NCBI GenBank assembly: GCA_016858145.1
Contig: JAEHOE010000189.1
Location: 1-64,000, forward strand
Origin: Edaphochlamys debaryana
Lineage: Eukaryota > Chlorophyta > Chlorophyceae > Chlamydomonadales
Direction of reading: 5' to 3'
Length of the DNA stretch: 64,000 nt
Below are positions 1-31,344 of this stretch, in pieces. The notes under the pieces are model-generated. The model made no database searches. It saw only the letters and a list, made by a program, of their open reading frames with translations, and was not told the DNA's origin. A program made the translations under genes and the position numbers. Every line of letters begins with the position of its first letter. The first letter of the stretch is position 1.

Positions 1-166
1 CAGGGAAGATCGAGCCCGAGCTGTGGTCGCACTGCACCTGGGGGCTGCCGTCGAGGCTGTCCGTGGCGGTCGGGATTGTGAAGTTCACCCTAGCGCCGTC
101 CCCAGAGGTGGCCTCCACGTCCGCAATCTCGGCGGTCAAGGTGGACAGGGGGGGCCGTCTTGTCGA
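1..166 (-). CDS. Partial HYR exon at window edge with a 2-bp deletion
   Basis: This is the leftmost, incomplete copy of the array exon. Compared with all other copies it lacks two bases (CT) in the stretch near 147-153, giving a run of seven G where the others read GGCTGGGGG. The deletion shifts the reading frame eight codons into the exon. The adjoining intron (167-423) also has a shorter GC run (AAGCGCGCGCG instead of AAGCCGCGCGCGCG). A real broken copy and a sequencing error in a G-rich run are both possible. Confidence 0.7.
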
Positions 167-12100: not shown

Positions 12101-15100
12101 TGACGGTGGTGGTGCCCACAGGGAAGATCGAGCCCGAGCTGTGGTCGCACTGCACCTGGGGGCTGCCGTCGAGGCTGTCCGTGGCGGTCGGGATTGTGAA
12201 GTTCACCCTAGCGCCGTCCCCAGAGGTGGCCTCCACGTCCGCAATCTCGGCGGTCAAGGTGGACAGGCTGGGGGCCGTCTTGTCGACTGAGGGCGGAAGG
12301 AAGGGAGCGGATGCAGCAGGGCGTGAGACAAGCCGCGCGCGCGTGGGGGCGAGAGTCCAGGGAAGAGAGCGCACAGCGTATCCAGCAAAAGGCAGGCTAA
12401 AGCTGCCTGGGGCGCTGCACGGAAGGCGAGGAGGCCAAGACATGTGCCCACAAGACGTGATGGGAAGAGGCATGCCCCACACCCACCGTCAGTCCGCTGC
12501 GAGCCCCTCCGGCCCCGACCTTGTCCCACCCGTCTTGACACTCACCCACGGTGACGTTGAAGCTGGTGCTGGCGGTGTTGCCCGAGGCGTCCTTAGCCGT
12601 GCACGTGACGGTGGTGGTGCCCACAGGGAAGATCGAGCCCGAGCTGTGGTCGCACTGCACCTGGGGGCTGCCGTCGAGGCTGTCCGTGGCGGTCGGGATT
12701 GTGAAGTTCACCCTAGCGCCGTCCCCAGAGGTGGCCTCCACGTCCGCAATCTCGGCGGTCAAGGTGGACAGGCTGGGGGCCGTCTTGTCGACTGAGGGCG
12801 GAAGGAAGGGAGCGGATGCAGCAGGGCGTGAGACAAGCCGCGCGCGCGTGGGGGCGAGAGTCCAGGGAAGAGAGCGCACAGCGTATCCAGCAAAAGGCAG
12901 GCTAAAGCTGCCTGGGGCGCTGCACGGAAGGCGAGGAGGCCAAGACATGTGCCCACAAGACGTGATGGGAAGAGGCATGCCCCACACCCACCGTCAGTCC
13001 GCTGCGAGCCCCTCCGGCCCCGACCTTGTCCCACCCGTCTTGACACTCACCCACGGTGACGTTGAAGCTGGTGCTGGCGGTGTTGCCCGAGGCGTCCTTA
13101 GCCGTGCACGTGACGGTGGTGGTGCCCACAGGGAAGATCGAGCCCGAGCTGTGGTCGCACTGCACCTGGGGGCTGCCGTCGAGGCTGTCCGTGGCGGTCG
13201 GGATTGTGAAGTTCACCCTAGCGCCGTCCCCAGAGGTGGCCTCCACGTCCGCAATCTCGGCGGTCAAGGTGGACAGGCTGGGGGCCGTCTTGTCGACTGA
13301 GGGCGGAAGGAAGGGAGCGGATGCAGCAGGGCGTGAGACAAGCCGCGCGCGCGTGGGGGCGAGAGTCCAGGGAAGAGAGCGCACAGCGTATCCAGCAAAA
13401 GGCAGGCTAAAGCTGCCTGGGGCGCTGCACGGAAGGCGAGGAGGCCAAGACATGTGCCCACAAGACGTGATGGGAAGAGGCATGCCCCACACCCACCGTC
13501 AGTCCGCTGCGAGCCCCTCCGGCCCCGACCTTGTCCCACCCGTCTTGACACTCACCCACGGTGACGTTGAAGCTGGTGCTGGCGGTGTTGCCCGAGGCGT
13601 CCTTAGCCGTGCACGTGACGGTGGTGGTGCCCACAGGGAAGATCGAGCCCGAGCTGTGGTCGCACTGCACCTGGGGGCTGCCGTCGAGGCTGTCCGTGGC
13701 GGTCGGGATTGTGAAGTTCACCCTAGCGCCGTCCCCAGAGGTGGCCTCCACGTCCGCAATCTCGGCGGTCAAGGTGGACAGGCTGGGGGCCGTCTTGTCG
13801 ACTGAGGGCGGAAGGAAGGGAGCGGATGCAGCAGGGCGTGAGACAAGCCGCGCGCGCGTGGGGGCGAGAGTCCAGGGAAGAGAGCGCACAGCGTATCCAG
13901 CAAAAGGCAGGCTAAAGCTGCCTGGGGCGCTGCACGGAAGGCGAGGAGGCCAAGACATGTGCCCACAAGACGTGATGGGAAGAGGCATGCCCCACACCCA
14001 CCGTCAGTCCGCTGCGAGCCCCTCCGGCCCCGACCTTGTCCCACCCGTCTTGACACTCACCCACGGTGACGTTGAAGCTGGTGCTGGCGGTGTTGCCCGA
14101 GGCGTCCTTAGCCGTGCACGTGACGGTGGTGGTGCCCACAGGGAAGATCGAGCCCGAGCTGTGGTCGCACTGCACCTGGGGGCTGCCGTCGAGGCTGTCC
14201 GTGGCGGTCGGGATTGTGAAGTTCACCCTAGCGCCGTCCCCAGAGGTGGCCTCCACGTCCGCAATCTCGGCGGTCAAGGTGGACAGGCTGGGGGCCGTCT
14301 TGTCGACTGAGGGCGGAAGGAAGGGAGCGGATGCAGCAGGGCGTGAGACAAGCCGCGCGCGCGTGGGGGCGAGAGTCCAGGGAAGAGAGCGCACAGCGTA
14401 TCCAGCAAAAGGCAGGCTAAAGCTGCCTGGGGCGCTGCACGGAAGGCGAGGAGGCCAAGACATGTGCCCACAAGACGTGATGGGAAGAGGCATGCCCCAC
14501 ACCCACCGTCAGTCCGCTGCGAGCCCCTCCGGCCCCGACCTTGTCCCACCCGTCTTGACACTCACCCACGGTGACGTTGAAGCTGGTGCTGGCGGTGTTG
14601 CCCGAGGCGTCCTTAGCCGTGCACGTGACGGTGGTGGTGCCCACAGGGAAGATCGAGCCCGAGCTGTGGTCGCACTGCACCTGGGGGCTGCCGTCGAGGC
14701 TGTCCGTGGCGGTCGGGATTGTGAAGTTCACCCTAGCGCCGTCCCCAGAGGTGGCCTCCACGTCCGCAATCTCGGCGGTCAAGGTGGACAGGCTGGGGGC
14801 CGTCTTGTCGACTGAGGGCGGAAGGAAGGGAGCGGATGCAGCAGGGCGTGAGACAAGCCGCGCGCGCGTGGGGGCGAGAGTCCAGGGAAGAGAGCGCACA
14901 GCGTATCCAGCAAAAGGCAGGCTAAAGCTGCCTGGGGCGCTGCACGGAAGGCGAGGAGGCCAAGACATGTGCCCACAAGACGTGATGGGAAGAGGCATGC
15001 CCCACACCCACCGTCAGTCCGCTGCGAGCCCCTCCGGCCCCGACCTTGTCCCACCCGTCTTGACACTCACCCACGGTGACGTTGAAGCTGGTGCTGGCGG

Positions 15101-18100
15101 TGTTGCCCGAGGCGTCCTTAGCCGTGCACGTGACGGTGGTGGTGCCCACAGGGAAGATCGAGCCCGAGCTGTGGTCGCACTGCACCTGGGGGCTGCCGTC
15201 GAGGCTGTCCGTGGCGGTCGGGATTGTGAAGTTCACCCTAGCGCCGTCCCCAGAGGTGGTCCTCCACGTCCGCAATCTCGGCGGTCAAGGTGGACAGGCT
15301 GGGGGCCGTCTTGTCGACTGAGGGCGGAAGGAAGGGAGCGGATGCAGCAGGGCGTGAGACAAGCCGCGCGCGCGTGGGGGCGAGAGTCCAGGGAAGAGAG
15401 CGCACAGCGTATCCAGCAAAAGGCAGGCTAAAGCTGCCTGGGGCGCTGCACGGAAGGCGAGGAGGCCAAGACATGTGCCCACAAGACGTGATGGGAAGAG
15501 GCATGCCCCACACCCACCGTCAGTCCGCTGCGAGCCCCTCCGGCCCCGACCTTGTCCCACCCGTCTTGACACTCACCCACGGTGACGTTGAAGCTGGTGC
15601 TGGCGGTGTTGCCCGAGGCGTCCTTAGCCGTGCACGTGACGGTGGTGGTGCCCACAGGGAAGATCGAGCCCGAGCTGTGGTCGCACTGCACCTGGGGGCT
15701 GCCGTCGAGGCTGTCCGTGGCGGTCGGGATTGTGAAGTTCACCCTAGCGCCGTCCCCAGAGGTGGTCTCCACGTCCGCAATCTCGGCGGTCAAGGTGGAC
15801 AGGCTGGGGGCCGTCTTGTCGACTGAGGGCGGAAGGAAGGGAGCGGATGCAGCAGGGCGTGAGACAAGCCGCGCGCGCGTGGGGGCGAGAGTCCAGGGAA
15901 GAGAGCGCACAGCGTATCCAGCAAAAGGCAGGCTAAAGCTGCCTGGGGCGCTGCACGGAAGGCGAGGAGGCCAAGACATGTGCCCACAAGACGTGATGGG
16001 AAGAGGCATGCCCCACACCCACCGTCAGTCCGCTGCGAGCCCCTCCGGCCCCGACCTTGTCCCACCCGTCTTGACACTCACCCACGGTGACGTTGAAGCT
16101 GGTGCTGGCGGTGTTGCCCGAGGCGTCCTTAGCCGTGCACGTGACGGTGGTGGTGCCCACAGGGAAGATCGAGCCCGAGCTGTGGTCGCACTGCACCTGG
16201 GGGCTGCCGTCGAGGCTGTCCGTGGCGGTCGGGATTGTGAAGTTCACCCTAGCGCCGTCCCCAGAGGTGGTCTCCACGTCCGCAATCTCGGCGGTCAAGG
16301 TGGACAGGCTGGGGGCCGTCTTGTCGACTGAGGGCGGAAGGAAGGGAGCGGATGCAGCAGGGCGTGAGACAAGCCGCGCGCGCGTGGGGGCGAGAGTCCA
16401 GGGAAGAGAGCGCACAGCGTATCCAGCAAAAGGCAGGCTAAAGCTGCCTGGGGCGCTGCACGGAAGGCGAGGAGGCCAAGACATGTGCCCACAAGACGTG
16501 ATGGGAAGAGGCATGCCCCACACCCACCGTCAGTCCGCTGCGAGCCCCTCCGGCCCCGACCTTGTCCCACCCGTCTTGACACTCACCCACGGTGACGTTG
16601 AAGCTGGTGCTGGCGGTGTTGCCCGAGGCGTCCTTAGCCGTGCACGTGACGGTGGTGGTGCCCACAGGGAAGATCGAGCCCGAGCTGTGGTCGCACTGCA
16701 CCTGGGGGCTGCCGTCGAGGCTGTCCGTGGCGGTCGGGATTGTGAAGTTCACCCTAGCGCCGTCCCCAGAGGTGGTCTCCACGTCCGCAATCTCGGCGGT
16801 CAAGGTGGACAGGCTGGGGGCCGTCTTGTCGACTGAGGGCGGAAGGAAGGGAGCGGATGCAGCAGGGCGTGAGACAAGCCGCGCGCGCGTGGGGGCGAGA
16901 GTCCAGGGAAGAGAGCGCACAGCGTATCCAGCAAAAGGCAGGCTAAAGCTGCCTGGGGCGCTGCACGGAAGGCGAGGAGGCCAAGACATGTGCCCACAAG
17001 ACGTGATGGGAAGAGGCATGCCCCACACCCACCGTCAGTCCGCTGCGAGCCCCTCCGGCCCCGACCTTGTCCCACCCGTCTTGACACTCACCCACGGTGA
17101 CGTTGAAGCTGGTGCTGGCGGTGTTGCCCGAGGCGTCCTTAGCCGTGCACGTGACGGTGGTGGTGCCCACAGGGAAGATCGAGCCCGAGCTGTGGTCGCA
17201 CTGCACCTGGGGGCTGCCGTCGAGGCTGTCCGTGGCGGTCGGGATTGTGAAGTTCACCCTAGCGCCGTCCCCAGAGGTGGTCTCCACGTCCGCAATCTCG
17301 GCGGTCAAGGTGGACAGGCTGGGGGCCGTCTTGTCGACTGAGGGCGGAAGGAAGGGAGCGGATGCAGCAGGGCGTGAGACAAGCCGCGCGCGCGTGGGGG
17401 CGAGAGTCCAGGGAAGAGAGCGCACAGCGTATCCAGCAAAAGGCAGGCTAAAGCTGCCTGGGGCGCTGCACGGAAGGCGAGGAGGCCAAGACATGTGCCC
17501 ACAAGACGTGATGGGAAGAGGCATGCCCCACACCCACCGTCAGTCCGCTGCGAGCCCCTCCGGCCCCGACCTTGTCCCACCCGTCTTGACACTCACCCAC
17601 GGTGACGTTGAAGCTGGTGCTGGCGGTGTTGCCCGAGGCGTCCTTAGCCGTGCACGTGACGGTGGTGGTGCCCACAGGGAAGATCGAGCCCGAGCTGTGG
17701 TCGCACTGCACCTGGGGGCTGCCGTCGAGGCTGTCCGTGGCGGTCGGGATTGTGAAGTTCACCCTAGCGCCGTCCCCAGAGGTGGCCTCCACGTCCGCAA
17801 TCTCGGCGGTCAAGGTGGACAGGCTGGGGGCCGTCTTGTCGACTGAGGGCGGAAGGAAGGGAGCGGATGCAGCAGGGCGTGAGACAAGCCGCGCGCGCGT
17901 GGGGGCGAGAGTCCAGGGAAGAGAGCGCACAGCGTATCCAGCAAAAGGCAGGCTAAAGCTGCCTGGGGCGCTGCACGGAAGGCGAGGAGGCCAAGACATG
18001 TGCCCACAAGACGTGATGGGAAGAGGCATGCCCCACACCCACCGTCAGTCCGCTGCGAGCCCCTCCGGCCCCGACCTTGTCCCACCCGTCTTGACACTCA

Positions 18101-21100
18101 CCCACGGTGACGTTGAAGCTGGTGCTGGCGGTGTTGCCCGAGGCGTCCTTAGCCGTGCACGTGACGGTGGTGGTGCCCACAGGGAAGATCGAGCCCGAGC
18201 TGTGGTCGCACTGCACCTGGGGGCTGCCGTCGAGGCTGTCCGTGGCGGTCGGGATTGTGAAGTTCACCCTAGCGCCGTCCCCAGAGGTGGCCTCCACGTC
18301 CGCAATCTCGGCGGTCAAGGTGGACAGGCTGGGGGCCGTCTTGTCGACTGAGGGCGGAAGGAAGGGAGCGGATGCAGCAGGGCGTGAGACAAGCCGCGCG
18401 CGCGTGGGGGCGAGAGTCCAGGGAAGAGAGCGCACAGCGTATCCAGCAAAAGGCAGGCTAAAGCTGCCTGGGGCGCTGCACGGAAGGCGAGGAGGCCAAG
18501 ACATGTGCCCACAAGACGTGATGGGAAGAGGCATGCCCCACACCCACCGTCAGTCCGCTGCGAGCCCCTCCGGCCCCGACCTTGTCCCACCCGTCTTGAC
18601 ACTCACCCACGGTGACGTTGAAGCTGGTGCTGGCGGTGTTGCCCGAGGCGTCCTTAGCCGTGCACGTGACGGTGGTGGTGCCCACAGGGAAGATCGAGCC
18701 CGAGCTGTGGTCGCACTGCACCTGGGGGCTGCCGTCGAGGCTGTCCGTGGCGGTCGGGATTGTGAAGTTCACCCTAGCGCCGTCCCCAGAGGTGGCCTCC
18801 ACGTCCGCAATCTCGGCGGTCAAGGTGGACAGGCTGGGGGCCGTCTTGTCGACTGAGGGCGGAAGGAAGGGAGCGGATGCAGCAGGGCGTGAGACAAGCC
18901 GCGCGCGCGTGGGGGCGAGAGTCCAGGGAAGAGAGCGCACAGCGTATCCAGCAAAAGGCAGGCTAAAGCTGCCTGGGGCGCTGCACGGAAGGCGAGGAGG
19001 CCCACTCGGGCGGGACGGAAGTCGTCATGGGAATTGCGGATTGGGCGCACACTGTGTCAAGTTGGAGGGACTACTTTGGCCACCCTACTGACCGAAGGCG
19101 TGAATACTGGTGGGGGACTTGCCTCGCGGGCGACGGGGGTGCCGGGCGACGTGGGTTCGTGCATCGACGGAAGCGGTCTTGCGCCAAGTTACTAGATGTA
19201 GACATAGAACGAGCTACACGAACCTTCTGGCCTAGCAGCCGCGATATGGAAGCGTTTGAGCGCTGATCGGCTTGCGAATACCGACATCGTCACCACAGCC
19301 TGGAAGCCTCAAGGTGTTCTTTTCAGTCATGTGTATAATTATCAAAAGCCCCCGCTGTGTGAGTAACCCTCGCCGACCTCTGTGCCCTCGCGATGGGTTT
19401 GGCACGAAGCCCAGCACCGCCTTCCGACCTTCCGCCGCCCCTCTTCGATTCAGGCCTCCTTGCAGAAACCATGAATACTCGCGCTGGCATGTGTCTGGCC
19501 CGTTTTATCGCCTGATATCTCCGTAGCCGCGTAGGGCTTTCCCTTTCCCAACGGTCCGCGCCGCGGCCCCTGCCTCCGCGCCGCAAGTGAAAGGCCAAAA
19601 ACCCTGCCTGTACTAATGCGCGCCAACCTAATGCATGGGCTGAGCCCACCCGCTTTACGGGTGCCTGCTACTGGCCCATCCACACATCCAGATGGCCTGC
19701 AGGTCGCACGGCAAGCGTGACCCACGCACCCGTGGTGACCTTGAAGCTGGCGCTAGCGGTGTTGCCAGAGGCGTCCTTAGCCGTACAGTTAACGGTGGTG
19801 GTGCCCAGGGTAAAGATAGAACCAGATCCAGGGCTGCAGTTGACTATGGGGTTGAGGTCCCAGTTGTCTGTGGCGTTCGGGCTGTACGACACGACCACTC
19901 CAGGGCGGGAGGGCGCCTGGATGTTGGTCATGTCGGCGACGGTGCTGCTGATGAACGTGGGTGTCACTTTGTCCACTGCAGGCGTGCGGTGGGGTTACGA
20001 AACGGGGACGGGGGGACACAGGTTCAATGGCCTCATAGCCCCAAAAGCTTGCCTGCTGTGCTCATGCCGACCAAATCCACGGATCGAGCCCACCCATTGT
20101 ACAGATGCCGGCGGCTACTGACTGATGCCCAGATGCCCTGCAGGTCACAAGCTTGACGGCTTGACCCACCCGTGGTGACCCTGAAGCTGGTACTGACGGT
20201 GTTGCCCGAGGCATCCTTCGCAGTGCAGTTGACGGTGGTGGTGCCCAGGGGAAAGGTGGAGGCCGATGGAGGGGAGCAGGTGACTATGGGGTTGAGGTCC
20301 CAGTTGTCTGTGGCGGTCGGCTGGGTGTACGACACGACTACTCCAGGGCGGGAGGGGGCCGGATAGTTGGCTATGTCGGCAACACTTGTGATATTGGGCT
20401 TCACTTGGTCGACTGCATGCGGCGTGGGGAGCAGGGGTAGCGCGAGAGGTTTCATGCATGTGGCTCAGCGCGGGCTTTCATGTCAATCTCGGCTGGGGCT
20501 CGGGCTACACATTCGATTTGAAAGGCCATGGTGTACGGACCGACCCACATCACCTAATAGGGGGCGTAAAGCAAGGACTCCCCGAGCTTCTTCCCAGCCT
20601 CTTCCTAGCCAAGTGAAGTAGCAGCACAGAGGATCGCATGCGATGGACCCACCTGTGGTGATCCTGAAGCTGGAGGTTGCCACATTGGCATAGTCGTCCT
20701 TAGCAGTGCAGTTAGTTGACGGTGGTGGTGCCGAGGGTAAAGGTGGAACCCGACGCAGGGCTGCAAGTCACCACGGGGCTGAGGTCCCAGTTGTCTGTGG
20801 CGGTCGGCAGAGTGTAGACAATGACCACTCCAGGGCGGGAGGGGGCCGGGTAGTTGTTCATGTCGGCAACAGTACTCATATTGGGCTTCAAGTTGTCGAC
20901 TGCATGGAGCGTGGGGAGCACAGGCGGGTGGGACAGGTGCGTGTTCGGTGGTGGAAAGGACTCCGGTTCGGTGCGTGCAAGGGACCTCAAAGATCCAAGC
21001 CTGATATGCTCAGCCGCCACGCCTCATCACAAGCAGTCTCAAGGAAGGTACAGGGGCACCACAATGCGCACAGCCCACGTACACCGTGCTCTCTACCCCG

Positions 21101-24100
21101 CCCTCGATCATGGCCCCCAACCCAAGCCCCAATGCTCCGGCTAAGCTCACACACACAGGTCCACACCGCCGCCACAATTGCTACAGAGGCCAAGGATTAC
21201 TCACCCGTGGTGACCTTAAAGGTAGTGCTTGCCAAGTTGCCCGAGTGGTCCGAAGCATAGCAGGTGACGTTGGTGGTGCCCAGGGTAAAGACGGAACCAG
21301 ATACAGGGCTACAGGAGATCACGGGGCTGGGGTCCCAGTTGTCCGTGGCATTTGGGCTGTACGACACGACTACTCCAGGGCGGGAGGGCGCCTGGATGTT
21401 GGTCCTGTCGACGACGGTGCTGTTGATGAACTTGGGTGATATCTTGTCGACTGCAGGCGTGCGATGGGGGGACAAGGGCACGTGGGGGGAGGGGTGGTCC
21501 GATAACCCTGAAACCTTGCCCTGGTACCCCACCCCAACCCCACCCCGCCCCAACCCCCCACCCCAACTAACGGATGCCTGCCAGCAGGCAGCGCTACGTA
21601 CTGGCTGAGGCCCAGATTCCTGTAGGGCAATGCAAGCTTGATGACCCACCCGTGGTGACCCTGAAGGTGGTGGTTGCCCGGTTGTTCGAGGTGTCGTAAG
21701 CATAGCAGGTGACGGTGGTGTTGCCCAGGGGAAACATGGAACCCGATGCAGGGCTGCAGCTGACCTTGACGTCCCCATCCCAATCCCAGTTGTCAGTAGC
21801 AGTCGGGTACTGGTAGGTCACCGCCGTATCAACCGGGTGGTTGAGGATGTTGGCAACGTAGCTTGTAAAAGTGGGGGCTATGTTGTCGACTGCGTGCAGT
21901 GTGCGTGGAGAGTGCAGTGTGGGGAGCAAGGGGGGGAGCGAGGGGCCTTCATTGACATGCAACCCGGCCCACATCACATGCAACACGACCCACATCACAT
22001 GCAACACGACCCCCCATATCACATGCAACCCGACCCACATCACAAATGGTAGGCAGGGCGTCAAGGACTCCCCCCAATCCCAAGTAAAAGCTTATCCAGC
22101 GGAGGGTGCAAGCGATCAACCCACCCGTGTTGACCCTGAAGGTGAGTGATGCTACGTTGCCAGAGTAGTCCGTAGCGGTACAGGTACCGATGGTGAGGCC
22201 CAGGGAAAACTGGGAACCCGATTCAGGGCTGCAGGTGACTACAGGTTTTGGGTCCCAGTTGTCCGTGGCGGTCGGCTGTGTGTAGTTCACGACTACTCCA
22301 GGGCGGGAAAGCACCGGGATACCGGTCATGATGGGGATGGTGCTTGTGAAGGTGGGCTTCACGTACTCGACTGCATGCGGCGTGGGGAGCAGGAGGGGAT
22401 GGGACCGGGGAGAGGCGGTGGGGAGTGGGAGCAGGGCCGGAGAGGGGTGCGGAGGACAGCAGAGGGCGTCAAGGACCGGAGGTGAGGACGACGAGCGACG
22501 GTGGCGGCACAAGTGCGGCTAGTGGGGCCGCCAAGCAACGCGCAGCTAACAAGGACTGGGGGCGCAGGTGATGACGAGGTGCAGGCAGGCAAGGTTTGGC
22601 GGCTCGCAGCCGCAACTCACTCCGCAGGTAAAGGCAGATTCCGTAACGGGACTGGTAGGGAAGTACGGCAGACTTCAAGTAGATATCTGCATAGCCGTAG
22701 GCGTCCGCGTATGCGGCCGCGTAGGTGATGCCGCGACAGTTGGCATCGTTCAGGCAGCCCCCGGCAAGGTGCGCCGGAGTTTCCTTGCCGTGTGCAAACG
22801 CGTCACCCCTCCCAGCGCGTACCGACACGTATTTTTTTCGCGCAATGATCGCTGCGCAGTCACCTATATTGGTGTCCTGCAAGGAGTCTGGTGCCTTATG
22901 ACAGACGCAAGGGGGGTTTGGCGTGCCCTAGGACCGGCCGGGGTCTAACCGCTCGCACAGGGGGTGTATGGAGACACCACGCCCGTGCCTGGCAACTTCA
23001 GGGGTATCAGTTGAGTCCTGAGGGACGAGGGAAGGGGGCAGCGCAAGAGGGGGATGCGTGCCAAGATACAGCAAGGGCTGCTGTTAGGGTTATGAGCGAA
23101 AGCGCTGTGCGGAAGCGTTTAAGCGGAAGCGTTGATGAGCGGAAGCGTTAAGCGGAAGGGGTAAGCGGAAGCGTTAAGCGGAAGTGTCAAGCGCTGACTG
23201 GGGAAGCCAGGGTGTTGGACAGTGAGCTGAAGTGACCTGCCACCAGCCGGGGGTGAGGCGGCAAAGGTGCCTGCCGGCCGCCGAGCTTTGAGTGGTGTGG
23301 GCTAGGGCAATGAGCTATGAATGAGCTACGGAATGCCAGTCAGCCAGACGGAGGCCACACACTGTTAAGCTAGTACTGTCAAGGATATACGGACAGTAAG
23401 GGTTGGTAGGGTAAGGGCAGCTGGATCAGGGCTGCGCGATAAGGCAAGTGGTATGTAAGCGTGCTCGGCTGCGGGGAAGCCTGGGGGCTAGTGGTGAAGG
23501 CTGGAGGGAGCTGGAGAGCGTGGAAGGGTATACGACCTTCACACGGGTAGGGGTGAGGCTGGAGTTGGCTTGGGCCTGAGTGGCGTAAGCCTGGGGGAAG
23601 AGGGGCGAAGGGGGCGGAGCCGAGGAGACACGCACGCTTTACAGTACGACTGAGTGCCGGGCTCGATCGGGGATCCTCCCGTGAGCTTCTAAGGACCAAC
23701 GTAATCGGGCAGCGTAACGAGGAGAAAATAGGGAAGTGATGATAGGATTGAGGCAGAGGGACGTTATGCTGCTAGCTGCTGTACTAGAATGAATGCTGGG
23801 GGCCGGAGCTGCAGAGTTTTGGGAGTGCTTTGTCTTGATTGTGTCTTTGTGTCTTTTGTGTGTCTTAGGGAAATGGCCGGCCGGGGTCGCCTTTTATACT
23901 CCCCCGGCCGCTGCGGTGCCGTACGATAGGACGAGCAGGGCGGCCGCCACGTCGGAGCCACGTAGGCCCACGTCAGGCCACGTCCGCGCCACGTCAGGCC
24001 ACGTATTCCGGCGCCGGGGCAACGTTGCACGCTCGTACATCCGGAAGGCCAACGGCTCGCTCCATTTGAAGATCCAGAGGCGGCGCTTCTAAGGACTATA

Positions 24101-27100
24101 GGCATTAGCAACATAGCCGGAAGGGCCCAAACCCACGCCGCCGCCCACTGACTCACTCAGTCGGTTGGGCGTTGGCCGAGGCCGTGCGCCCTGACACGCC
24201 GTGCCGTCGCTGTCGACCTAGCCACTTCGGACACCTCAATAACTTCTACTTTGACACACAGTCACCTAGTCGGGTCTAAATACCACTACACGCAACGTGC
24301 GACCCTAGGAAGCTAAAGCTGTCCTGCCAAACCAGTTCCGCTCCCAGACGGAGCACATGATAATCTTATGAACACTATGTACAGTCTATATATGCATGCT
24401 GCGGCTGCTCGGGAGGAGGGAGAGCACATGGTCAGGGACCTCCCTCGCTACCGCCGCTGGGCTACTCGGAGCCACACCAATGTCAACAACATGATAGCAG
24501 ATAGAGGGAGAACATACTGCTGAAGCCGGGAAGCGGGTGCACGGACCAACTTGATGGCCGGATGGCGCCATAGTTGCCGGGCTGGATACGCCAACACGTC
24601 AGGAGTCTCTACAAGTATACACCACGGTCGACTGAGGGCGTCGGGGCAGGTAAAGAGCTGAAGTCTCGCCAAGTCTCGTGCGATGGGTCTGCTTCGATCG
24701 TGCCGCGGAGGCCGCTTCCCTGTCAGGGAACGCACTAGAAGCCTAAATCAAAGCTGCTGCAGGGCACGGTGTCTGCCGGCGAGACGCTGCTGCCGGCGTG
24801 CGCATACCCACACGCACCTGACACCTTCCGCCGCCCCGCGCGTCATCACGTTAAGGGGGGCCATGCACGGAGGTCCTGCCTGACACACCATAACAATCCT
24901 ACGTCTACTGCTATCAACTTGCACGCGCGCTGCCTAGCTCCATGTCCGCGCGCGTGCCTACACACGAATCTCGCCTAATCAACTCGAGCCGCGAGGGGCG
25001 GGGGTCCTCGGGGATTCACGGCTCTGCTCACCCGCCTCGTTTACACTGCAAACGCTTGAGGGGGGTTCGCCATTGCTATCGTATAGCTTTCTTAAGGATG
25101 CGTGCAGACGTGTCGCGACACATATTGAGTAGGTACCTGCTTGCTCACGGCAGCTGCCGTGTGTGGGGGGAGTTGCGGGGGCACCGCCCCGGTGTCCTTA
25201 TGAACCCGCTGCGACACGTACTGCTCACCTTCTTCAATCCTACTCTCTATACCATAGATCTTGTCCTCGGACATTATTTGTGGAGGGAGCTGCAGAGCAG
25301 CAAGGCGTGCTTCGCTAAGGTGGGCTTGGCTGTATGCAACAGGGTTGGGTCGTCTTGCAAGGAGAACAGTGTATAGCGGGACAACAGGGACAATTTGTAG
25401 CGGGACTACACTTCTACTGTCAGCTGTTGAAAGGGCATCACATCGATGCGTGTAGCTTGCCGGCTTTGATGGGTTCTTGCAGCTTTACACCAGAGGCCTG
25501 AGGGAAAGGGACTTTGTGCGCCCCAGGGATGGAGGCGCTCTCAAATCAATGCGGTCCAGGGGTACGTCTACTTGTACTGCTGCGCAGTTATGCGCTGCCT
25601 TCACGCAATGCAGGCGTGGCACACACACGGGAGGGCACCGAGGACGAACGGTGCTGGAGGGGGCGCTGGCCTACTTGTCCCGTGGTGTCATGGGGCAAGC
25701 AAGCGCCCTCTAATGAGCCTGGTTAGGCTTATCATCCTCATCCTCATCCTCATCCTCATCCTCATCCTCATCCTCATCCTCATCCTCATCCTCATCCTCA
25801 TCCTCATCCTCATCCTCATCCTCATCCTCATCCTCATCCTCATCCTCATCCTCATCCTCATCCTCATCCTCATCCTCATCCTCATCCTCATCCTCATCCT
25901 CATCCCAGCCTTGGGCTGCTGTGGGCGCTCCGGTGAAGAGCGGCCATGATGGAGGCCCGTCCCTGTCACTAGCCACCTGCTGCGGGCTAGCATTGCCAGG
26001 GCTGGAGCTGCTGGGGACACGAGGCGGAGACGAAAGGGGGGCGCCACCGTACTGGGGACCTCGAGGGCTCCGGCACTTCGGGTTGCCTTGCCCAATTAAA
26101 GTACTGTCGAGGGGCTGGCGCCTGGTGTGAATGTGTGTGGGAGCAGGCGCCCTGCACAGCATTGCGAACGGTTTGCCGGCTGGCGCGTGTCCACTGTCGG
26201 CCTGTGCCCTTCTTTGGGTTCCGGGCCATGGTCCTTGGCTGGGTGGCCTGCCAAACTGCACGGCAGATCTCTTTGGGAGAGACAAAAGCTGCTAGCGTAC
26301 TGATCACCAGCTGCGCTGCCTGCTTAGGAGCAAGGCCAGAGGAGTGACGGGGCGGCCGTGGGAAACGGCTGTTGCGGCGGCTGGCACGCTCAGGCTGGTG
26401 CCGCTGCCGAGGACGGGGGCACGAGTACGCACATGCATCCGTTGGGAACCGGTTATGGGAGGCATGAGGCATGTGTCGTGCCCTTGGTTGCCGGTTGATT
26501 GGCCTGCGGTGGAAGGTTTTGTCTGGGGTTTTGTCCAAGCAGATGTTGCCAGTGGGACGCCTGTTGGCACGTGATGGGGCAACACTTGGTGCTGCGCACA
26601 CTGTGGGCTGCGAGGATGCGAAGAACACTTCTGCGGACGGCATGTCGACACAGGGTGTCTGCGGCGCTGAGTGCGGTGTGACATGCACAGGGGTGTGCGA
26701 GGCGTCAAGCATGTACACCTGCGTATGCGTTTGGGGAGAGTGGGGGCGCCGTGGGGCCCGCCATGAAGGGACTCGGTGTTGATGTTCATCGTATGGCTCT
26801 GCAGGGGAGATGGAGGTTTGCGGTTCTGTGTGCAATGCGGCTACGGCCGCGGTCAGTTGCTGCAAGTGCCGCATCATGGCGGCCTGCGTTGAGCGCAAGG
26901 CCTCCAGTTCTTGGGTGATGGGGCCCATAGGCTCTGCACTGTGGGATTGCCTTGGCCAAGGGGTTGGAGGACGAGCAGATGTGAGGTAAACCATGGGTGG
27001 TTCGTCAGAGCCATTGGATTTGGTGTCATCAGGAATGGGCGACGTTTGCGGCTGGTCTACCCTTGGAGATGCTCCCGGCCTGTCCTTCTTGTCGGCTCCT

Positions 27101-30100
27101 TTGAATATGGCGCTGGTGTCATGATACGTTGCCACCTCTATGGCCTGATCCAGGGAGCGGGGGCGATAGAGGTGCACGGCCTCTTGCATGTGTGGTGACA
27201 GGCCTCGAATGTAGGTCTGCATGTGGATTGTGTCTGCGTTGCCGTCGATCTTGAGCTGAGTAAGCAAGGAACGGTAACGGTCTGTATAGTCCCCCACACT
27301 CTCATCTTTGGCTTGATGACAATGGGCCAAGCGGTGATGCAAGATTGCGTCAGTAGTACCATATCTCTCTGCCAAGGCGTGACGGAAGTTGGGCCAAGTT
27401 GTCAAGCGCTGTGGGATGCCCTTTGCCCATGACGTGGCTTTGGGGTCCAAACGGCATCGAGCTGCTGCCAAGCGCTCCTCCTCTGACCAGCCATAGGCGT
27501 CACCATGCTGGTCTATCATATCAAGCCAGTCTGATGCGTCAACCTTTTGGGGCCTAAACAGAGGGATTGCCCGAAGTGATGACGGTTTAAGGCTGGGTGC
27601 CATGGTGGTGGTGGTGGTGCACATGCGATGGTTGACACGGAGTTGCCAAGCAATTGCAAGAGGGACGAGGGACGAGACAGAGGTGGGATGGTAGTGGCGT
27701 GACACGGGGTGAACTTGGTGCGCCTGCGGCGAGGGGCCTGCTAGGCTTTGCAAGACAGAGACGGGATGGTGTTGGTCTCGAAAGGGGCAGTGGCGTGCAA
27801 GCCTGTGTGGCGAGCAAAGGATGGCGTTCAACTTGCGTTGGTGAAGGGGAAGGCTAAAGGCTGCAAGGGTTGCAACGCTTTGCGATGCCTGAGGGGACGA
27901 TGGTACGTGCGCTTGTCGTGAGCAGAGCGCAGATGCCCGGATGAGGGCAGGTGATATGAACGAAGGGCGGAGTTGCGGAAGGGGATTGAACGATGGAGGG
28001 AGCGGAGGCTAGGCAATGCGCGGCGGAGCTGATGGACAATTGAGGGAGAGCGAGAGGCAAAGGTCGATCAATTGAGGGGAGAGGAATGCCGAGGGACTTC
28101 CAAGCCTGGGTTATCACGGAGGGATAAGGATGGGAGAAAAGAGCGGAGGCGATGTGAGATGCACGGAGGGGCTGCCTAACACGAAGGTGTTTACCAATGC
28201 GCGGAGGGGCTGCCTAACAAGTAGGTTATGACCAATGCGCGGAGGGGCTGAAGCTGAGACCAAAGCTGAAGCTGATTGCTGATTACCCGTGTATGCTGTT
28301 GCCAAAGGAGAGAGCGGAGACGAGTCCGGAGACGAAGTCCCGCTACCACAAACGCGTCACCCCTCCCAGCGCGTACCGACACGTATTTTTTTCGCGCAAT
28401 GATCGCTGCGCAGTCACCTATATTGGTGTCCTGCAAGGAGTCTGGTGCCTTATGACAGACGCAAGGGGGGTTTGGCGTGCCCTAGGACCGGCCGGGGTCT
28501 AACCGCTCGCACAGGGGGTGTATGGAGACACCACGCCCGTGCCTGGCAACTTCAGGGGTATCAGTTGAGTCCTGAGGGACGAGGGAAGGGGGCAGCGCAA
28601 GAGGGGGATGCGTGCCAAGATACAGCAAGGGCTGCTGTTAGGGTTATGAGCGAAAGCGCTGTGCGGAAGCGTTTAAGCGGAAGCGTTGATGAGCGGAAGC
28701 GTTAAGCGGAAGGGGTATGCGGAAGCGTTAAGCGGAAGTGTCAAGCGCTGACTGGGGAAGCCAGGGTGTTGGACAGTGAGCTGAAGTGACCTGCCACCAG
28801 CCGGGGGTGAGGCGGCTAAGGTGCCTGCCGGCCGCCGAGCTTTGAGTGGTGTGGGCTAGGGCAATGAGCTATGAATGAGCTACGGAATGCCAGTCAGCCA
28901 GACGGAGGCCACACACTGTTAAGCTAGTACTGTCAAGGATATACGGACAGTAAGGGTTGGTAGGGTAAGGGCAGCTGGATCAGGGCTGCGCGATAAGGCA
29001 AGTGGTATGTAAGCGTGCTCGGCTGCGGGGAAGCCTGGGGGCTAGTGGTGAAGGCTGGAGGGAGCTGGAGAGCGTGGAAGGGTATACGACCTTCACACGG
29101 GTAGGGGTGAGGCTGGAGTTGGCTTGGGCCTGAGTGGCGTAAGCCTGGGGGAAGAGGGGCGAAGGGGGCGGAGCCGAGGAGACACGCACGCTTTACAGTA
29201 CGACTGAGTGCCGGGCTCGATCGGGGATCCTCCCGTGAGCTTCTAAGGACCAACGTAATCGGGCAGCGTAACGAGGAGAAAATAGGGAAGTGATGATAGG
29301 ATTGAGGCAGAGGGACGTTATGCTGCTAGCTGCTGTACTAGAATGAATGCTGGGGGCCGGAGCTGCAGAGTTTTGGGAGTGCTTTGTCTTGATTGTGTCT
29401 TTGTGTCTTTTGTGTGTCTTAGGGAAATGGCCGGCCGGGGTCGCCTTTTATACTCCCCCGGCCGCTGCGGTGCCGTACGATAGGACGAGCAGGGCGGCCG
29501 CCACGTCGGAGCCACGTAGGCCCACGTCAGGCCACGTCCGCGCCACGTCAGGCCACGTATTCCGGCGCCGGGGCAACGTTGCACGCTCGTACATCCGGAA
29601 GGCCAACGGCTCGCTCCATTTGAATTATTGGATCCAGAGGCGGCGCTTCTAAGGACTATAGGCATTAGCAACATAGCCGGAAGGGCCCAAACCCACGCCG
29701 CCGCCCACTGACTCACTCAGTCGGTTGGGCGTTGGCCGAGGCCGTGCGCCCTGACACGCCGTGCCGTCGCTGTCGACCTAGCCACTTCGGACACCTCAAT
29801 AACTTCTACTTTGACACACAGTCACCTAGTCGGGTCTAAATACCACTACACGCAACGTGCGACCCTAGGAAGCTAAAGCTGTCCTGCCAAACCAGTTCCG
29901 CTCCCAGACGGAGCACATGATAATCTTATGAACACTATGTACAGTCTATATATGCATGCTGCGGCTGCTCGGGAGGAGGGAGAGCACATGGTCAGGGACC
30001 TCCCTCGCTACCGCCGCTGGGCTACTCGGAGCCACACCAATGTCAACAACATGATAGCAGATAGAGGGAGAACATACTGCTGAAGCCGGGAAGCGGGTGC

Positions 30101-31344
30101 ACGGACCAACTTGATGGCCGGATGGCGCCATAGTTGCCGGGCTGGATACGCCAACACGTCAGGAGTCTCTACAAGTATACACCACGGTCGACTGAGGGCG
30201 TCGGGGCAGGTAAAGAGCTGAAGTCTCGCCAAGTCTCGTGCGATGGGTCTGCTTCGATCGTGCCGCGGAGGCCGCTTCCCTGTCAGGGAACGCACTAGAA
30301 GCCTAAATCAAAGCTGCTGCAGGGCACGGTGTCTGCCGGCGAGACGCTGCTGCCGGCGTGCGCATACCCACACGCACCTGACACCTTCCGCCGCCCCGCG
30401 CGTCATCACGTTAAGGGGGGCCATGCACGGAGGTCCTGCCTGACACACCATAACAATCCTACGTCTACTGCTATCAACTTGCACGCGCGCTGCCTAGCTC
30501 CATGTCCGCGCGCGTGCCTACACACGAATCTCGCCTAATCAACTCGAGCCGCGAGGGGCGGGGGTCCTCGGGGATTCACGGCTCTGCTCACCCGCCTCGT
30601 TTACACTGCAAACGCTTGAGGGGGGTTCGCCATTGCTATCGTATAGCTTTCTTAAGGATGCGTGCAGACGTGTCGCGACACATATTGAGTAGGTACCTGC
30701 TTGCTCACGGCATCCTTCAAGTAAACTGCGGGGGGGGGGCCGGGCCGCCGATCGAGCGAGCGAGGGCCGCATTGGCACGAATCGAGAGACCCATTGCTGG
30801 GCCCCACGACCACGGCACAGCCAGCACCTAAGCCATGCGACTCACATATGCTATCAGAAGCGTGATCTTGGTCGGGGAGGGCGGTGAAGTTGTTCATAAC
30901 GGGGCAAGCTGCAAGGGGCAGAGGGTTAGAAGACATCAACGAGGTAAGGGCGGCGGGGCTAGCGGGGCACAGGACTCCGGCAGGGGTGTACATCCCCTGC
31001 CAACGGCCCGTCGCGCTAGGACTCCCTCGCTCACGTGTCGCCAGCAGGCGGCGCCTGGCGGTGGAGGCGTTGGCAGCTGCGGGGGGCGGAGCGACACGCG
31101 TTAGGGAAGCGGGACAGGGGGTGGCCGAAGAGAAAGAGAGAAACGCGGCCTTGCTGTTGCCTAGCTACGCAAGCTGCTACGCAAGCAGTCCAGCCGAAGC
31201 GAGCTAGCATCCCAGGGAGCGCGGCCGCGGCTCACCCCTGATGTGAGGCAGCCGAGAGGCGGAAGCCGCGGACACCGCGAGGAGCAGCGCCGCGAGCGCC
31301 AGGCGAAGCACGGCCATGCCCCGGAGGGCGCTGCCGCGCGCCAT
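1..31344 (-). CDS. Giant secreted HYR-repeat protein gene with PAN-like N-terminus, interrupted by a retrotransposon; 3' end beyond window
   Basis: A multi-exon gene read right to left. Exon 1 (31344-31236) encodes a signal peptide, exon 2 (30908-30846) and exon 3 (30725-30717 plus 22785-22621, split by a retrotransposon) encode a Cys-rich PAN/Apple-like domain, and exons 4-9 plus an array of 37 whole and one partial exons each encode one HYR domain of about 82 residues. Every intron falls after the first base of a codon (phase 1), so the exons are symmetric. At least 44 HYR domains are visible, giving over 3,600 residues, and the gene continues left of the window. HYR is an immunoglobulin-like extracellular adhesion fold, so a cell-surface or extracellular-matrix role is inferred. 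Three HYR exons carry frame-breaking indels (near 147-153, 15256-15263 and 20706-20720) and exon 3 holds a 7.9-kb insertion. The gene may therefore be a disrupted allele, or some indels may be sequence errors. The intron 18853-19729 contains no exon I can support. Confidence 0.8.
15071..15317 (-). CDS. HYR array exon with a one-base insertion
   Basis: This array exon is 247 bp instead of 246. The plus strand reads GGTGGTCCTCC where neighbours read GGTGGCCTCC (copies further left) or GGTGGTCTCC (the next four copies to the right). The extra base shifts the reading frame in the first third of the domain. It sits exactly at the site that separates the two subtypes and contains both alternative bases, so a consensus error at a mixed site is a serious possibility. 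Confidence 0.75.
19730..19975 (-). CDS. Divergent HYR exon (sixth after the PAN domain)
   Basis: An intact 246-bp phase-1 exon with a CAG acceptor at 19976-19978 and a GTGCGT donor just below 19730. It encodes a HYR domain beginning VDKVTPTF and ending SASFKVTTG, with the two conserved Cys. It is the exon nearest the tandem array but clearly differs from the array consensus, so the array was not copied from it recently. The 877-bp intron on its downstream side contains the truncated last array unit. Confidence 0.85.
20170..20412 (-). CDS. Divergent HYR exon (fifth)
   Basis: A 243-bp phase-1 exon encoding a HYR domain that starts VDQVKPNI and contains GTTTVNCTAKDASGN. The acceptor is GCATGCAG and the donor GTGGGT. 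It is one codon shorter than the 246-bp type and the frame is intact. Confidence 0.85.
20653..20899 (-). CDS. Divergent HYR exon (fourth), frame broken by 4-bp insertion
   Basis: The exon has good borders (acceptor CATGCAG, donor GTGGGT) but measures 247 bp where 243 is expected. On the plus strand GCAGTTAGTTGACGG replaces the GCAGTTGACGG of its neighbour, a 4-bp direct duplication near 20710. The frame reads a normal HYR N-terminal half to GTTTVN and then hits a stop. The second half resumes in another frame with KDDYANVATSSFRITTG. The exon is symmetric (phase 1-1), so skipping it would restore the protein frame. Confidence 0.75.
21205..21450 (-). CDS. Divergent HYR exon (third)
   Basis: An intact 246-bp phase-1 exon with acceptor CTGCAG and donor GTGAGT. 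The encoded domain starts VDKISPKF and contains GTTNVTCYASDHSGN, a typical HYR C-terminal strand pattern. Confidence 0.85.
21650..21889 (-). CDS. Divergent HYR exon (second)
   Basis: An intact 240-bp phase-1 exon, the shortest of the set, starting VDNIAPTF and ending TTTFRVTTG. It lacks the SRPGVVV segment of its neighbours and has DTAVTYQYPTATDNW instead, but keeps both Cys and the NTTVTCYAYD core. Confidence 0.85.
21953..22046. repeat. Minisatellite in a HYR-gene intron
   Basis: Four imperfect copies of a 22-24 bp unit built on CACATCACATGCAACACGACC lie in the 235-bp intron between the first and second HYR exons (21890-22124). No coding role is seen. Confidence 0.7.
22125..22370 (-). CDS. 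Divergent HYR exon (first)
   Basis: An intact 246-bp phase-1 exon that directly follows the PAN-like exon in transcript order. It starts VEYVKPTF instead of the usual VDK and contains GLTIGTCTATDYSGN, so the GTTTV strand is modified while both Cys are kept. The acceptor is CATGCAG and the donor GTGGGT. Confidence 0.82.
22621..22785 (-). CDS. PAN/Apple-like exon, 3' part, cut by the retrotransposon
   Basis: The reading frame encodes ETPAHLAGGCLNDANCRG, then YLKSAVLPYQSRYGICLYLR, and ends at a GTGAGT donor (22615-22620) in phase 1. The Cys spacing (GGC-4-NC ... GIC) and the YLKSA motif resemble PAN/Apple-type domains of algal surface proteins. The last four bases of this part (22782-22785, TCCT on the plus strand) are duplicated on the far side of the inserted element. 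Joined to 30717-30725, the exon would be 174 bp, a multiple of three and phase 1 at both ends. Confidence 0.78.
22782..22785. repeat. Target-site duplication, left copy (TCCT)
   Basis: TCCT directly precedes the TGCCGTG terminus of the retrotransposon and is repeated directly after its CACGGCA terminus at 30713-30716. Removing the element and one copy rejoins the host exon in frame, which supports this placement. Confidence 0.8.
22786..25152 (-). repeat. 3' LTR (left copy)
   Basis: A long terminal repeat of 2,367 bp; positions 22795-25152 match 28349-30712. It begins TGCCGTGTG on the plus strand and ends CTCACGGCA, so it has canonical TG...CA ends. It includes a cluster of GCGGAAGCGTTAA-like units at about 23096-23190 and repeated CCACGTCAGG words near 23947-24005. 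The first nine bases (TGCCGTGTG) are absent from the other LTR. Confidence 0.85.
25710..26285 (-). CDS. Hypothetical acidic-tailed frame overlapping the gag 3' end
   Basis: A 191-codon frame, offset from gag, overlaps the last ~300 bp of gag and ends in a long Asp-Glu repeat encoded by the hexanucleotide microsatellite, followed by DDKPNQAH and a stop. It could be reached by ribosomal frameshifting or may be only a shadow of gag. There is no family recognition, and I regard expression as doubtful. Confidence 0.2.
   Translation of the reverse strand: MSLPKRSAVQFGRPPSQGPWPGTQRRAQADSGHAPAGKPFAMLCRAPAPTHIHTRRQPLDSTLIGQGNPKCRSPRGPQYGGAPLSSPPRVPSSSSPGNASPQQVASDRDGPPSWPLFTGAPTAAQGWDEDEDEDEDEDEDEDEDEDEDEDEDEDEDEDEDEDEDEDEDEDEDEDEDEDEDEDEDDKPNQAH
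25731..25906. repeat. Hexanucleotide microsatellite (TCATCC)n, about 29 copies
   Basis: An almost perfect run of TCATCC on the plus strand inside the retrotransposon. Read on the minus strand in one frame it gives alternating Asp-Glu for nearly 60 residues, continuous with an open frame that overlaps the end of gag. In another frame it gives Met-Arg repeats. Confidence 0.95.
25987..27624 (-). CDS. gag: Retrotransposon Gag protein
   Basis: An open frame of up to 614 codons (first Met at 27831); the start at 27624 (MCTTTTTMAPS) fits better with the beginning of the conserved region. A Retrotrans_gag domain is visible: DASDWLDMIDQHGDAYGW, later WPNFRHALAERYG, then DYTDRYRSLLTQL and YIRGLSPHMQEAV. 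This is the capsid-like alpha-helical domain of Ty3/Gypsy elements. The C-terminal half is rich in Pro, His, Arg and Ser with no CCHC zinc knuckle that I can see. No pol follows; a short overlapping frame (26285-25710) leads into an Asp-Glu repeat. Gag would package element RNA while enzymes are supplied by a partner element. Confidence 0.85.
   Translation of the reverse strand: MCTTTTTMAPSLKPSSLRAIPLFRPQKVDASDWLDMIDQHGDAYGWSEEERLAAARCRLDPKATSWAKGIPQRLTTWPNFRHALAERYGTTDAILHHRLAHCHQAKDESVGDYTDRYRSLLTQLKIDGNADTIHMQTYIRGLSPHMQEAVHLYRPRSLDQAIEVATYHDTSAIFKGADKKDRPGASPRVDQPQTSPIPDDTKSNGSDEPPMVYLTSARPPTPWPRQSHSAEPMGPITQELEALRSTQAAMMRHLQQLTAAVAALHTEPQTSISPAEPYDEHQHRVPSWRAPRRPHSPQTHTQVYMLDASHTPVHVTPHSAPQTPCVDMPSAEVFFASSQPTVCAAPSVAPSRANRRPTGNICLDKTPDKTFHRRPINRQPRARHMPHASHNRFPTDACAYSCPRPRQRHQPERASRRNSRFPRPPRHSSGLAPKQAAQLVISTLAAFVSPKEICRAVWQATQPRTMARNPKKGTGRQWTRASRQTVRNAVQGACSHTHSHQAPAPRQYFNWARQPEVPEPSRSPVRWRPPFVSASCPQQLQPWQC
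28333..28348 (-). promoter_or_regulatory. Candidate primer-binding site of the retrotransposon
   Basis: Reading the minus strand, the 5' LTR ends ...CGTTTG at 28349 and is followed without a gap by TGGTAGCGGGACTTCG. A primer-binding site starts with TGG because it pairs with the CCA end of a tRNA. The matching tRNA would end in CCCGCTACCA; its identity is unknown to me. Confidence 0.45.
28349..30712 (-). repeat. 5' LTR (right copy)
   Basis: A 2,364-bp direct repeat of the left LTR. Differences seen are A/T at 23166 versus 28720, A/T at about 23266 versus 28820, and six extra bases at about 29625 (TTGAATTATTGG versus TTGAAG). It begins TGCCGTGAGC on the minus strand but lacks the final CACACGGCA that closes the other copy. 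Confidence 0.85.
29947..29953 (-). promoter_or_regulatory. Candidate TATA box in the 5' LTR
   Basis: The minus strand reads GCATGCATATATAGACTG here, about 760 bp into the 5' LTR and upstream of gag. This is the only strong TATA-like run I noticed in the LTR. The same sequence occurs in the left LTR at 24387-24393. Confidence 0.3.
30713..30725 (-). CDS. PAN/Apple-like exon, 5' part, including right target duplication (30713-30716)
   Basis: A CAG acceptor (30726-30728) preceded by a C-rich tract on the minus strand opens an exon reading TT TAC TTG AAG GA, that is (x)-Y-L-K-. The retrotransposon interrupts it after these 13 bases. Fused to the left part without one TCCT copy, the frame continues YLKETPAHLAGG. 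Together with exon 2 this gives DSIFYLKETP, a plausible start for the domain. Confidence 0.72.
30846..30908 (-). CDS. Exon 2 of the HYR gene, start of PAN-like domain
   Basis: A 63-bp phase-1 exon with a strong acceptor (CTAAC branch-like motif and pyrimidine tract before CTTGCAG) and a GTGAGT donor. It encodes CPVMNNFTALPDQDHASDSI, supplying the first Cys of the domain. The model is based on splice signals and phase only, so a transcript is needed to confirm it. Confidence 0.65.
31236..31344 (-). CDS. Exon 1 of the HYR gene: signal peptide
   Basis: ATG at 31344 opens MARGSALRGMAVLRLALA followed by ALLLAVSAASAS, a textbook signal peptide with a basic start, Leu/Ala-rich core and small residues before a likely cleavage site near SAS. 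The exon ends at a GTGAGC donor in phase 1, matching every other intron of the gene. An internal Met (GMAVLRL) could also serve as the start. Confidence 0.78.

Follow-up and report, generated by a model that had tools for sequence, protein, structure and literature searches.

A recent gag-only LTR retrotransposon insertion in an exon of a HYR-repeat gene of Edaphochlamys debaryana and the order of repeats at its ends

A gag-only LTR retrotransposon interrupts an exon of a HYR-repeat gene in Edaphochlamys debaryana, and the repeats at its ends follow an order, A1-interior-B1-GC-A2-B2 (A, LTR; B, nine bases), that is not a product of standard LTR replication. The insertion was read in a window of 64,000 bases (i.e., positions 1 to 64,000 of the 188,760-bp contig JAEHOE010000189.1, or C189; GC of the window, 66%), and the genome-wide searches covered one assembly (141.9 Mb; 502 contigs), in which the other copies are named by contig (C43, C19, etc.). 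The insertion itself is real, recent, and ordinary, transposons in exons being common. The end order is robust and recurs in a second family of elements. Taken as a whole, we regard as probable an account in which a gag-only Ty3-type element recently entered exon 4 of this volvocine alga's gene for a large secreted protein with HYR repeats; a possible origin of the element's ends is part of that account.

Table 1. Positions of the insertion, its parts, the interrupted gene, and an element of the second family (window positions unless a locus is named)
Feature	Position	Strand	Basis or remark
gag-only LTR retrotransposon, 7,927 bp	22786-30712	minus	same orientation as host gene
Target-site duplication TCCT, left copy	22782-22785	no strand	flank comparison
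Target-site duplication TCCT, right copy	30713-30716	no strand	flank comparison
5' LTR (A1), starts TGCCGTGAGC, finishes GCGTTTG	28349-30712	minus	LTR alignment
3' LTR (A2)	22795-25152	minus	2 mismatches and one 6-bp indel versus A1
PBS-like TGGTAGCGGGAC, immediately 3' of 5' LTR	28337-28348	minus	putative
gag reading frame, stop to stop	25987-28008	minus	ORF and profile matches
B1, nine bases CACACGGCA, then GC (25153-25154), then 3' LTR	25155-25163	minus	
B2, the nine bases of B1 repeated at the outer 3' end	22786-22794	minus	not present at the border of 5' LTR and interior
Host gene exon 1, 109 bp	31236-31344	minus	ATG and signal-peptide-like start (judged by eye)
Host gene exon 2, 42 bp	31035-31076	minus	
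Host gene exon 3, 63 bp	30846-30908	minus	
Host gene exon 4, 5' fragment, 9 bp without the TCCT copy	30717-30725	minus	
Host gene exon 4, 3' fragment, 165 bp including one TCCT	22621-22785	minus	
HYR exon	22125-22370	minus	PF02494
HYR exon with AACT duplication (20710-20717)	20653-20899	minus	in-frame TAA
505-bp tandem array, unit of HYR exon and intron	1-18860 (limits approximate)	minus	
Second-family element inside a family-1 LTR	L030:2583-9358		gag-only LTR type

The earlier note had placed a retrotransposon within an exon and had called the event recent, and both readings stand: the inserted stretch is bounded by TCCT on either side, has near-identical LTRs, and carries gag. The LTR pair differs at two of 2,358 aligned bases (23164/28718 and 23263/28817), i.e., by 0.085%, and by one 6-bp indel (29625 to 29630). 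Because the pair is this close, compared with differences of 1.1 to 5.0% between the window LTRs and those of other insertions, the insertion into the exon is recent. One half of the LTR (1,082 bp) matched the genome at 23 places, two of them within the window element. The 4-bp target duplications matched at all nine sites of this family (family 1) with both flanks read, where a match by chance is expected at about 0.006 per site; two of the nine are weak evidence, because both are GGGG.

The site before insertion can be read from the flanks. Joining the two fragments of exon 4 with a single TCCT gave 174 bases that were open and in phase 1-1, read ...YLKETPAHL..., and had GCAG as the acceptor on one side and GTGAGT as the donor on the other, and the three upstream exons (109, 42, and 63 bp) share one frame with the joined exon. 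The proposal that removal of the element and of one TCCT copy restores the exon was thus borne out, and as a reconstruction the predicted empty site holds. The one assembly contains the exon a single time, in the occupied form, with no empty allele, and no paralog of the exon was found in the genome at an E value of ≤1. Since the empty site is readable, the insertion is usable as a presence/absence marker in natural isolates.

The gag reading frame matched two profiles above their cutoffs (Retrotrans_gag/Ty3_capsid; PF03732, E = 4e-10; PF19259, E = 1e-8). A run of TCATCC hexamers lies inside the element downstream of gag (25732 to 25905). No pol domain (i.e., RT, RNase H, or integrase) was found in the gag ORF. 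The same holds for four further ORFs of the window (≥150 amino acids each), for which the best match was DUF6688, below cutoff, and the interior (3.2 kb) has little space for pol alongside gag. With no pol domain, the element would be at most a gag-only, nonautonomous derivative. As in Ty3/gypsy elements, there are two direct LTRs, TG...CA ends with a 4-bp duplication (duplications in that group are 4 to 6 bp), and gag; the pol order was not seen, and the ends of the 5' LTR and of the 3' terminal repeat were not identical. The 4-bp duplication, the TG...CA ends, and the Ty3-type gag speak for an LTR element that uses an integrase.

Among the nearest known kinds of element are the gag-only, nonautonomous Ty3/gypsy elements of the TR-GAG type. 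Elements of that type share with the present one the LTRs, the Retrotrans_gag/Ty3_capsid match, a PBS-like site, a short duplication, and the lack of a detected pol, whereas the present element has nine extra bases at its right end that match the nine bases before the 3' LTR. Relatives of the gag with 42 to 43% identity lie on the same contigs and strands as matches to integrase H2C2, in ORFs of equal length (near C18:434-440 kb, C20:102-109 kb, and C67:391-398 kb), and the two kinds of match are taken to belong to the same frames. Among 7,994 candidates scored in the protein collection, no gag homolog was found at an E value of ≤0.001, and viral contigs (from which records near this genome were possibly excluded) contained one pattern-matching stretch, which encodes no relative. 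A candidate primer tRNA for the PBS-like site would end ...TCCCGCTA; a search with a tRNA-shaped pattern gave 35 matches per strand versus 34 in the control, i.e., chance level overall.

Two sets of widely spaced LTRs were rejected as autonomous partners. The LTR pairs spaced by 12.1 kb at C243, C282, and C99 contain the gag-only interior and a second element in the 5' LTR, and a pair 13 kb apart at C41 was unrelated on reading. The copy at C143 stops at interior base 1630; a tandem repeat of ~1.8 kb (in C143:221501-230457) lies ~0.5 kb from this truncated copy.

The end order was assessed at 21 LTR 3' ends of family 1, i.e., in 20 of 26 LTR rows and at C2. In the other six rows the 3' end is not readable: three LTRs run into the second element, two reach a contig end, and one is broken. 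All 21 ends took one of two forms, 11 continuing into the PBS-like TGGTAGCGGGAC and 10 into CACACGGCA and then host DNA. Accordingly, B was missing at 11 of 11 LTR/PBS borders and present at 10 of 10 outer ends. The outer ends represent ten sites, and the borders derive from six insertions, because there are arrays at C43 and C19 and a common left flank at C99, C243, and C282; we treat these last three as one duplicated event. The A-B-GC-A junction did not occur among the 10 outer ends read.

A genome-wide pattern search for the LTR end yielded 20 exact matches, 18 of them among the 21 ends read (8 with B and 10 with the PBS) and two at C41 that were unrelated. The 31 matches with one mismatch (3 known ends and 28 outside the ends read) compare with 41 in the reversed control. 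The search for B1-GC-A2 gave 13 matches versus 1 in the control, comprising nine known internal junctions and four matches with two mismatches outside the reading.

Insertions of this family also take other forms. Single A-B copies with TG...CA ends are found at C133, C48, C243, and C57. In tandem arrays with shared LTRs, four LTRs and three interiors (C43) or three LTRs and two interiors (C19) lie within one pair of target duplications. Differences between LTRs of the same insertion were 0.0 to 0.35% in the window, C43, C19, and C279 and higher elsewhere (0.6% at C243, 1.7% at C282, and 2.1% at C99). The C99 3' LTR was closer to the C243 5' LTR (0.0% over the compared part) than to its own partner. 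C43 and C19 are only 0.3 to 0.5% apart, and exchange could have homogenized the LTRs of the arrays.

The second family was found as an insert in the family-1 LTR copies at C243, C282, and C99 (6,776, 6,887, and 6,776 bp, respectively; CCCA on both sides). The C243 insert, the copy scanned for gag, is gag-only and has a separate pair of LTRs (1,435 bp; 99.9% identical). As in family 1, its LTR is followed by the PBS-like TGGTAGCGGGAC, and B is missing at this border, which stands for one insertion only, in three duplicates. GATGGGACA-GC stands ahead of the 3' LTR, which begins with TG, and the outer end is the LTR plus GATGGGACA. The B of family 2 is therefore GATGGGACA, nine bases in length and at the same place as in family 1 with other letters, and the B2 of each family copies its own B1.

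Besides the C243-type site, all eight further outer ends of family 2 finish with GATGGGACA, with seven distinct flanks. Both family-2 duplications read were matching (CCCA at the C243-type site and GCGG at C81). Exact junctions in the genome numbered nine for A/B2 and seven for B1-GC-A2, with none in the reversed-pattern controls; nine further A/B2 matches had one mismatch (C132, which was read; C99, in the known locus; and seven outside the reading). No third family was recognized among the LTR-like pairs in the seven stretches examined.

Standard reverse transcription copies the U5 end of each new LTR from the 5' LTR. The U5/PBS end is without B and cannot be the source of B2, and B2 would have to be rebuilt at each insertion, because the LTR pairs of the window, C43, C19, and C279 fit joint synthesis by reverse transcription. 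As an explanation, we consider it possible, at somewhat less than an even chance, that the end order arises from a plus-strand start 11 bases upstream, end joining, and integrase cutting at CA^GC. Plus-strand DNA starting 11 bases upstream of the LTR would give a linear cDNA of the form B-GC-A ... A, and joining of its ends would create A-B-GC-A. Cutting of this junction by integrase at CA^GC on both strands would leave a right end of ...CACACGGCA and a left end of TGCCGTG..., with two bases lost, and each insertion would transfer nine bases from the left to the right end. The ends in the genome agree with the predicted right end, the predicted left end, and the two missing bases.

Extended to both families, the tentative proposal is that they may integrate from end-joined DNA (i.e., a 2-LTR circle or a concatemer) by opening A-B-GC-A within an inverted repeat centered on CAGCTG. 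B-GC-A forms such a repeat at eight of nine bases in family 1 and at six of nine in family 2, the latter symmetry being weak (7% by chance). The integrase of prototype foamy virus (PFV) cleaves a palindromic 2-LTR junction in vitro, and the same paper argues for a two-base loss (PMC1180852). The two systems have in common a palindrome where the ends are joined and the disappearance, on integration, of the two bases that separate CA from TG. The cut proposed here differs in lying 9 to 11 bases inside one end and in moving bases from left to right.

Several observations stand against the circle. None of the five insertions for which both interior and 3' flank were covered (window, C43, C19, C279, and C99) is permuted or has one LTR, and integrase would therefore have to distinguish the internal B1-GC-A2 from the circle junction, as their cores are identical. 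No purine tract was seen before B1 in family 1, although GTGGGGGAT is there in family 2, and the LTR partners at C243, C282, and C99 are 0.6 to 2.1% apart. The circle-junction step is what we infer from the ends; the DNA intermediate and a pol-bearing partner are presumed.

One alternative explanation of the ends is improbable, namely that the element is an ordinary one with A-B as its true LTR and that a founder copy lost B from the 5' LTR. A-B has the TG...CA ends proper to LTRs, and the single copies have exactly that form. Under this explanation, however, the loss of B would reach both ends, because both new LTRs copy the U5 end of the 5' LTR, whereas B is present at every outer end read and absent at every LTR/PBS border, and the second family is alike with other letters.

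An element of the PAT/TOC type of DIRS, with split direct repeats and movement by a tyrosine recombinase, is also improbable. PAT/TOC elements are defined by split direct repeats, A1-B1-A2-B2 (PMC4157794), and DIRS elements resembling PAT have been reported from these algae (PMC8226300). The repeats in both families stand in that order, and PAT/TOC/Kangaroo elements likewise have A1-interior-B1-A2-B2. In contrast to those elements, the present ones have a 4-bp duplication, TG...CA ends, a Ty3-type gag, and a B of only 9 bp. PAT/TOC elements are not known to make a target-site duplication, and membership is disfavored because the 4-bp duplication was found at nine of nine sites. The gag matches Ty3_capsid, its relatives are in ORFs with integrase H2C2 matches, and no tyrosine recombinase was found among the ORFs scanned by profile (the gag ORF and four window ORFs).

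Cut-and-paste spread of units with inverted ends (TGCCGTG/CACGGCA), without reverse transcription, is very improbable: the ends are inverted over 7 bp, lone A-B copies and arrays each have a single duplication pair, and LTR partners at the C243/C282/C99 locus are not mutually closest, but the LTR pairs of the window, C43, C19, and C279 are closer to each other (0.0 to 0.35%) than to unrelated insertions, and the element carries gag.

Integration from joined ends, if it is the true explanation, would make the circle junction the normal integration substrate in these two families and would offer a natural, sequence-readable example of such integration. The idea of the retroviral circle junction as an integration substrate has been raised and mostly set aside as a dead end. 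Integration from joined ends, if real, would also be a caution for annotation tools in which the two LTRs are taken to end identically. No description of this end order was found in the literature searched, which consisted mainly of titles and abstract openings and had older algal element papers mostly outside its coverage.

The gene copy on this contig has two lesions, the element in exon 4 and the AACT duplication in a later HYR exon. This 4-bp duplication breaks the exon, giving an in-frame TAA (20899 to 20653), and the gene is therefore probably degraded; a full-length product from the gene on this contig is not to be expected, in our judgment, with good though incomplete confidence. The suggestion that the gene may be inactive is accordingly strengthened by the second lesion, and inactivity is likely, with the reservation that exon skipping would keep the frame. 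Phase 1-1 is common to exons 2 and 3, to exon 4 once joined, and to the listed intact HYR exons, and skipping one of them would thus keep the frame.

It is unlikely that the gene still works through skipping of exon 4 or through intron-like removal of the element from its RNA. A good donor (GCC/GTGAGC) is present at the element start, the duplication makes CAAG/GA at the other end, and removal as an intron between GTGAGC and CAAG would give an in-frame product with DA inserted; skipping of exon 4 would also preserve the frame, given its phase and that of its neighbors. However, the cryptic acceptor is AAG, compared with CAG at the other acceptors of the gene that were read, which makes splicing at the element's own sites weak. 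TGTAA, the algal poly(A) signal, lies on the sense strand 108 bases into the element, and a further HYR exon is frameshifted.

The designation as a surface-protein gene is reasonable on the basis of the signal-peptide-like start (by eye) and the HYR domains. HYR (PF02494) scored 41.0 and 55.7 bits (cutoff, 21.7; E = 2e-10 and 7e-15) in the two exons scanned. A PAN/Apple domain with a cysteine pattern completed by the join, also put forward in the earlier note, was not borne out. PAN_4 reached 12.9 bits on the joined region and 14.2 bits on the left half-exon alone (cutoff, 27), and an unrelated profile, itself below cutoff, outscored PAN_4. The three cysteines of exon 4 are all encoded between 22621 and 22785, with none in the nine right-hand bases; the join therefore completes no cysteine pattern. 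None of the 78 candidates scored was a homolog of the joined region (residues 37 to 128 of a 536-amino-acid query) at an E value of ≤10.

PF02494 repeats, one per exon, are shared with other HYR-domain proteins. The gene differs from them in its tandem array of near-identical 505-bp exon-intron units, which extends off the contig start with anchor spacings of 501, 505, and 506; of its 38 unit anchors, 36 carry an open HYR exon. Duplicated blocks were also observed in the right half of the window (~45 to 53 kb), the longest being ~2 kb at 90% identity.
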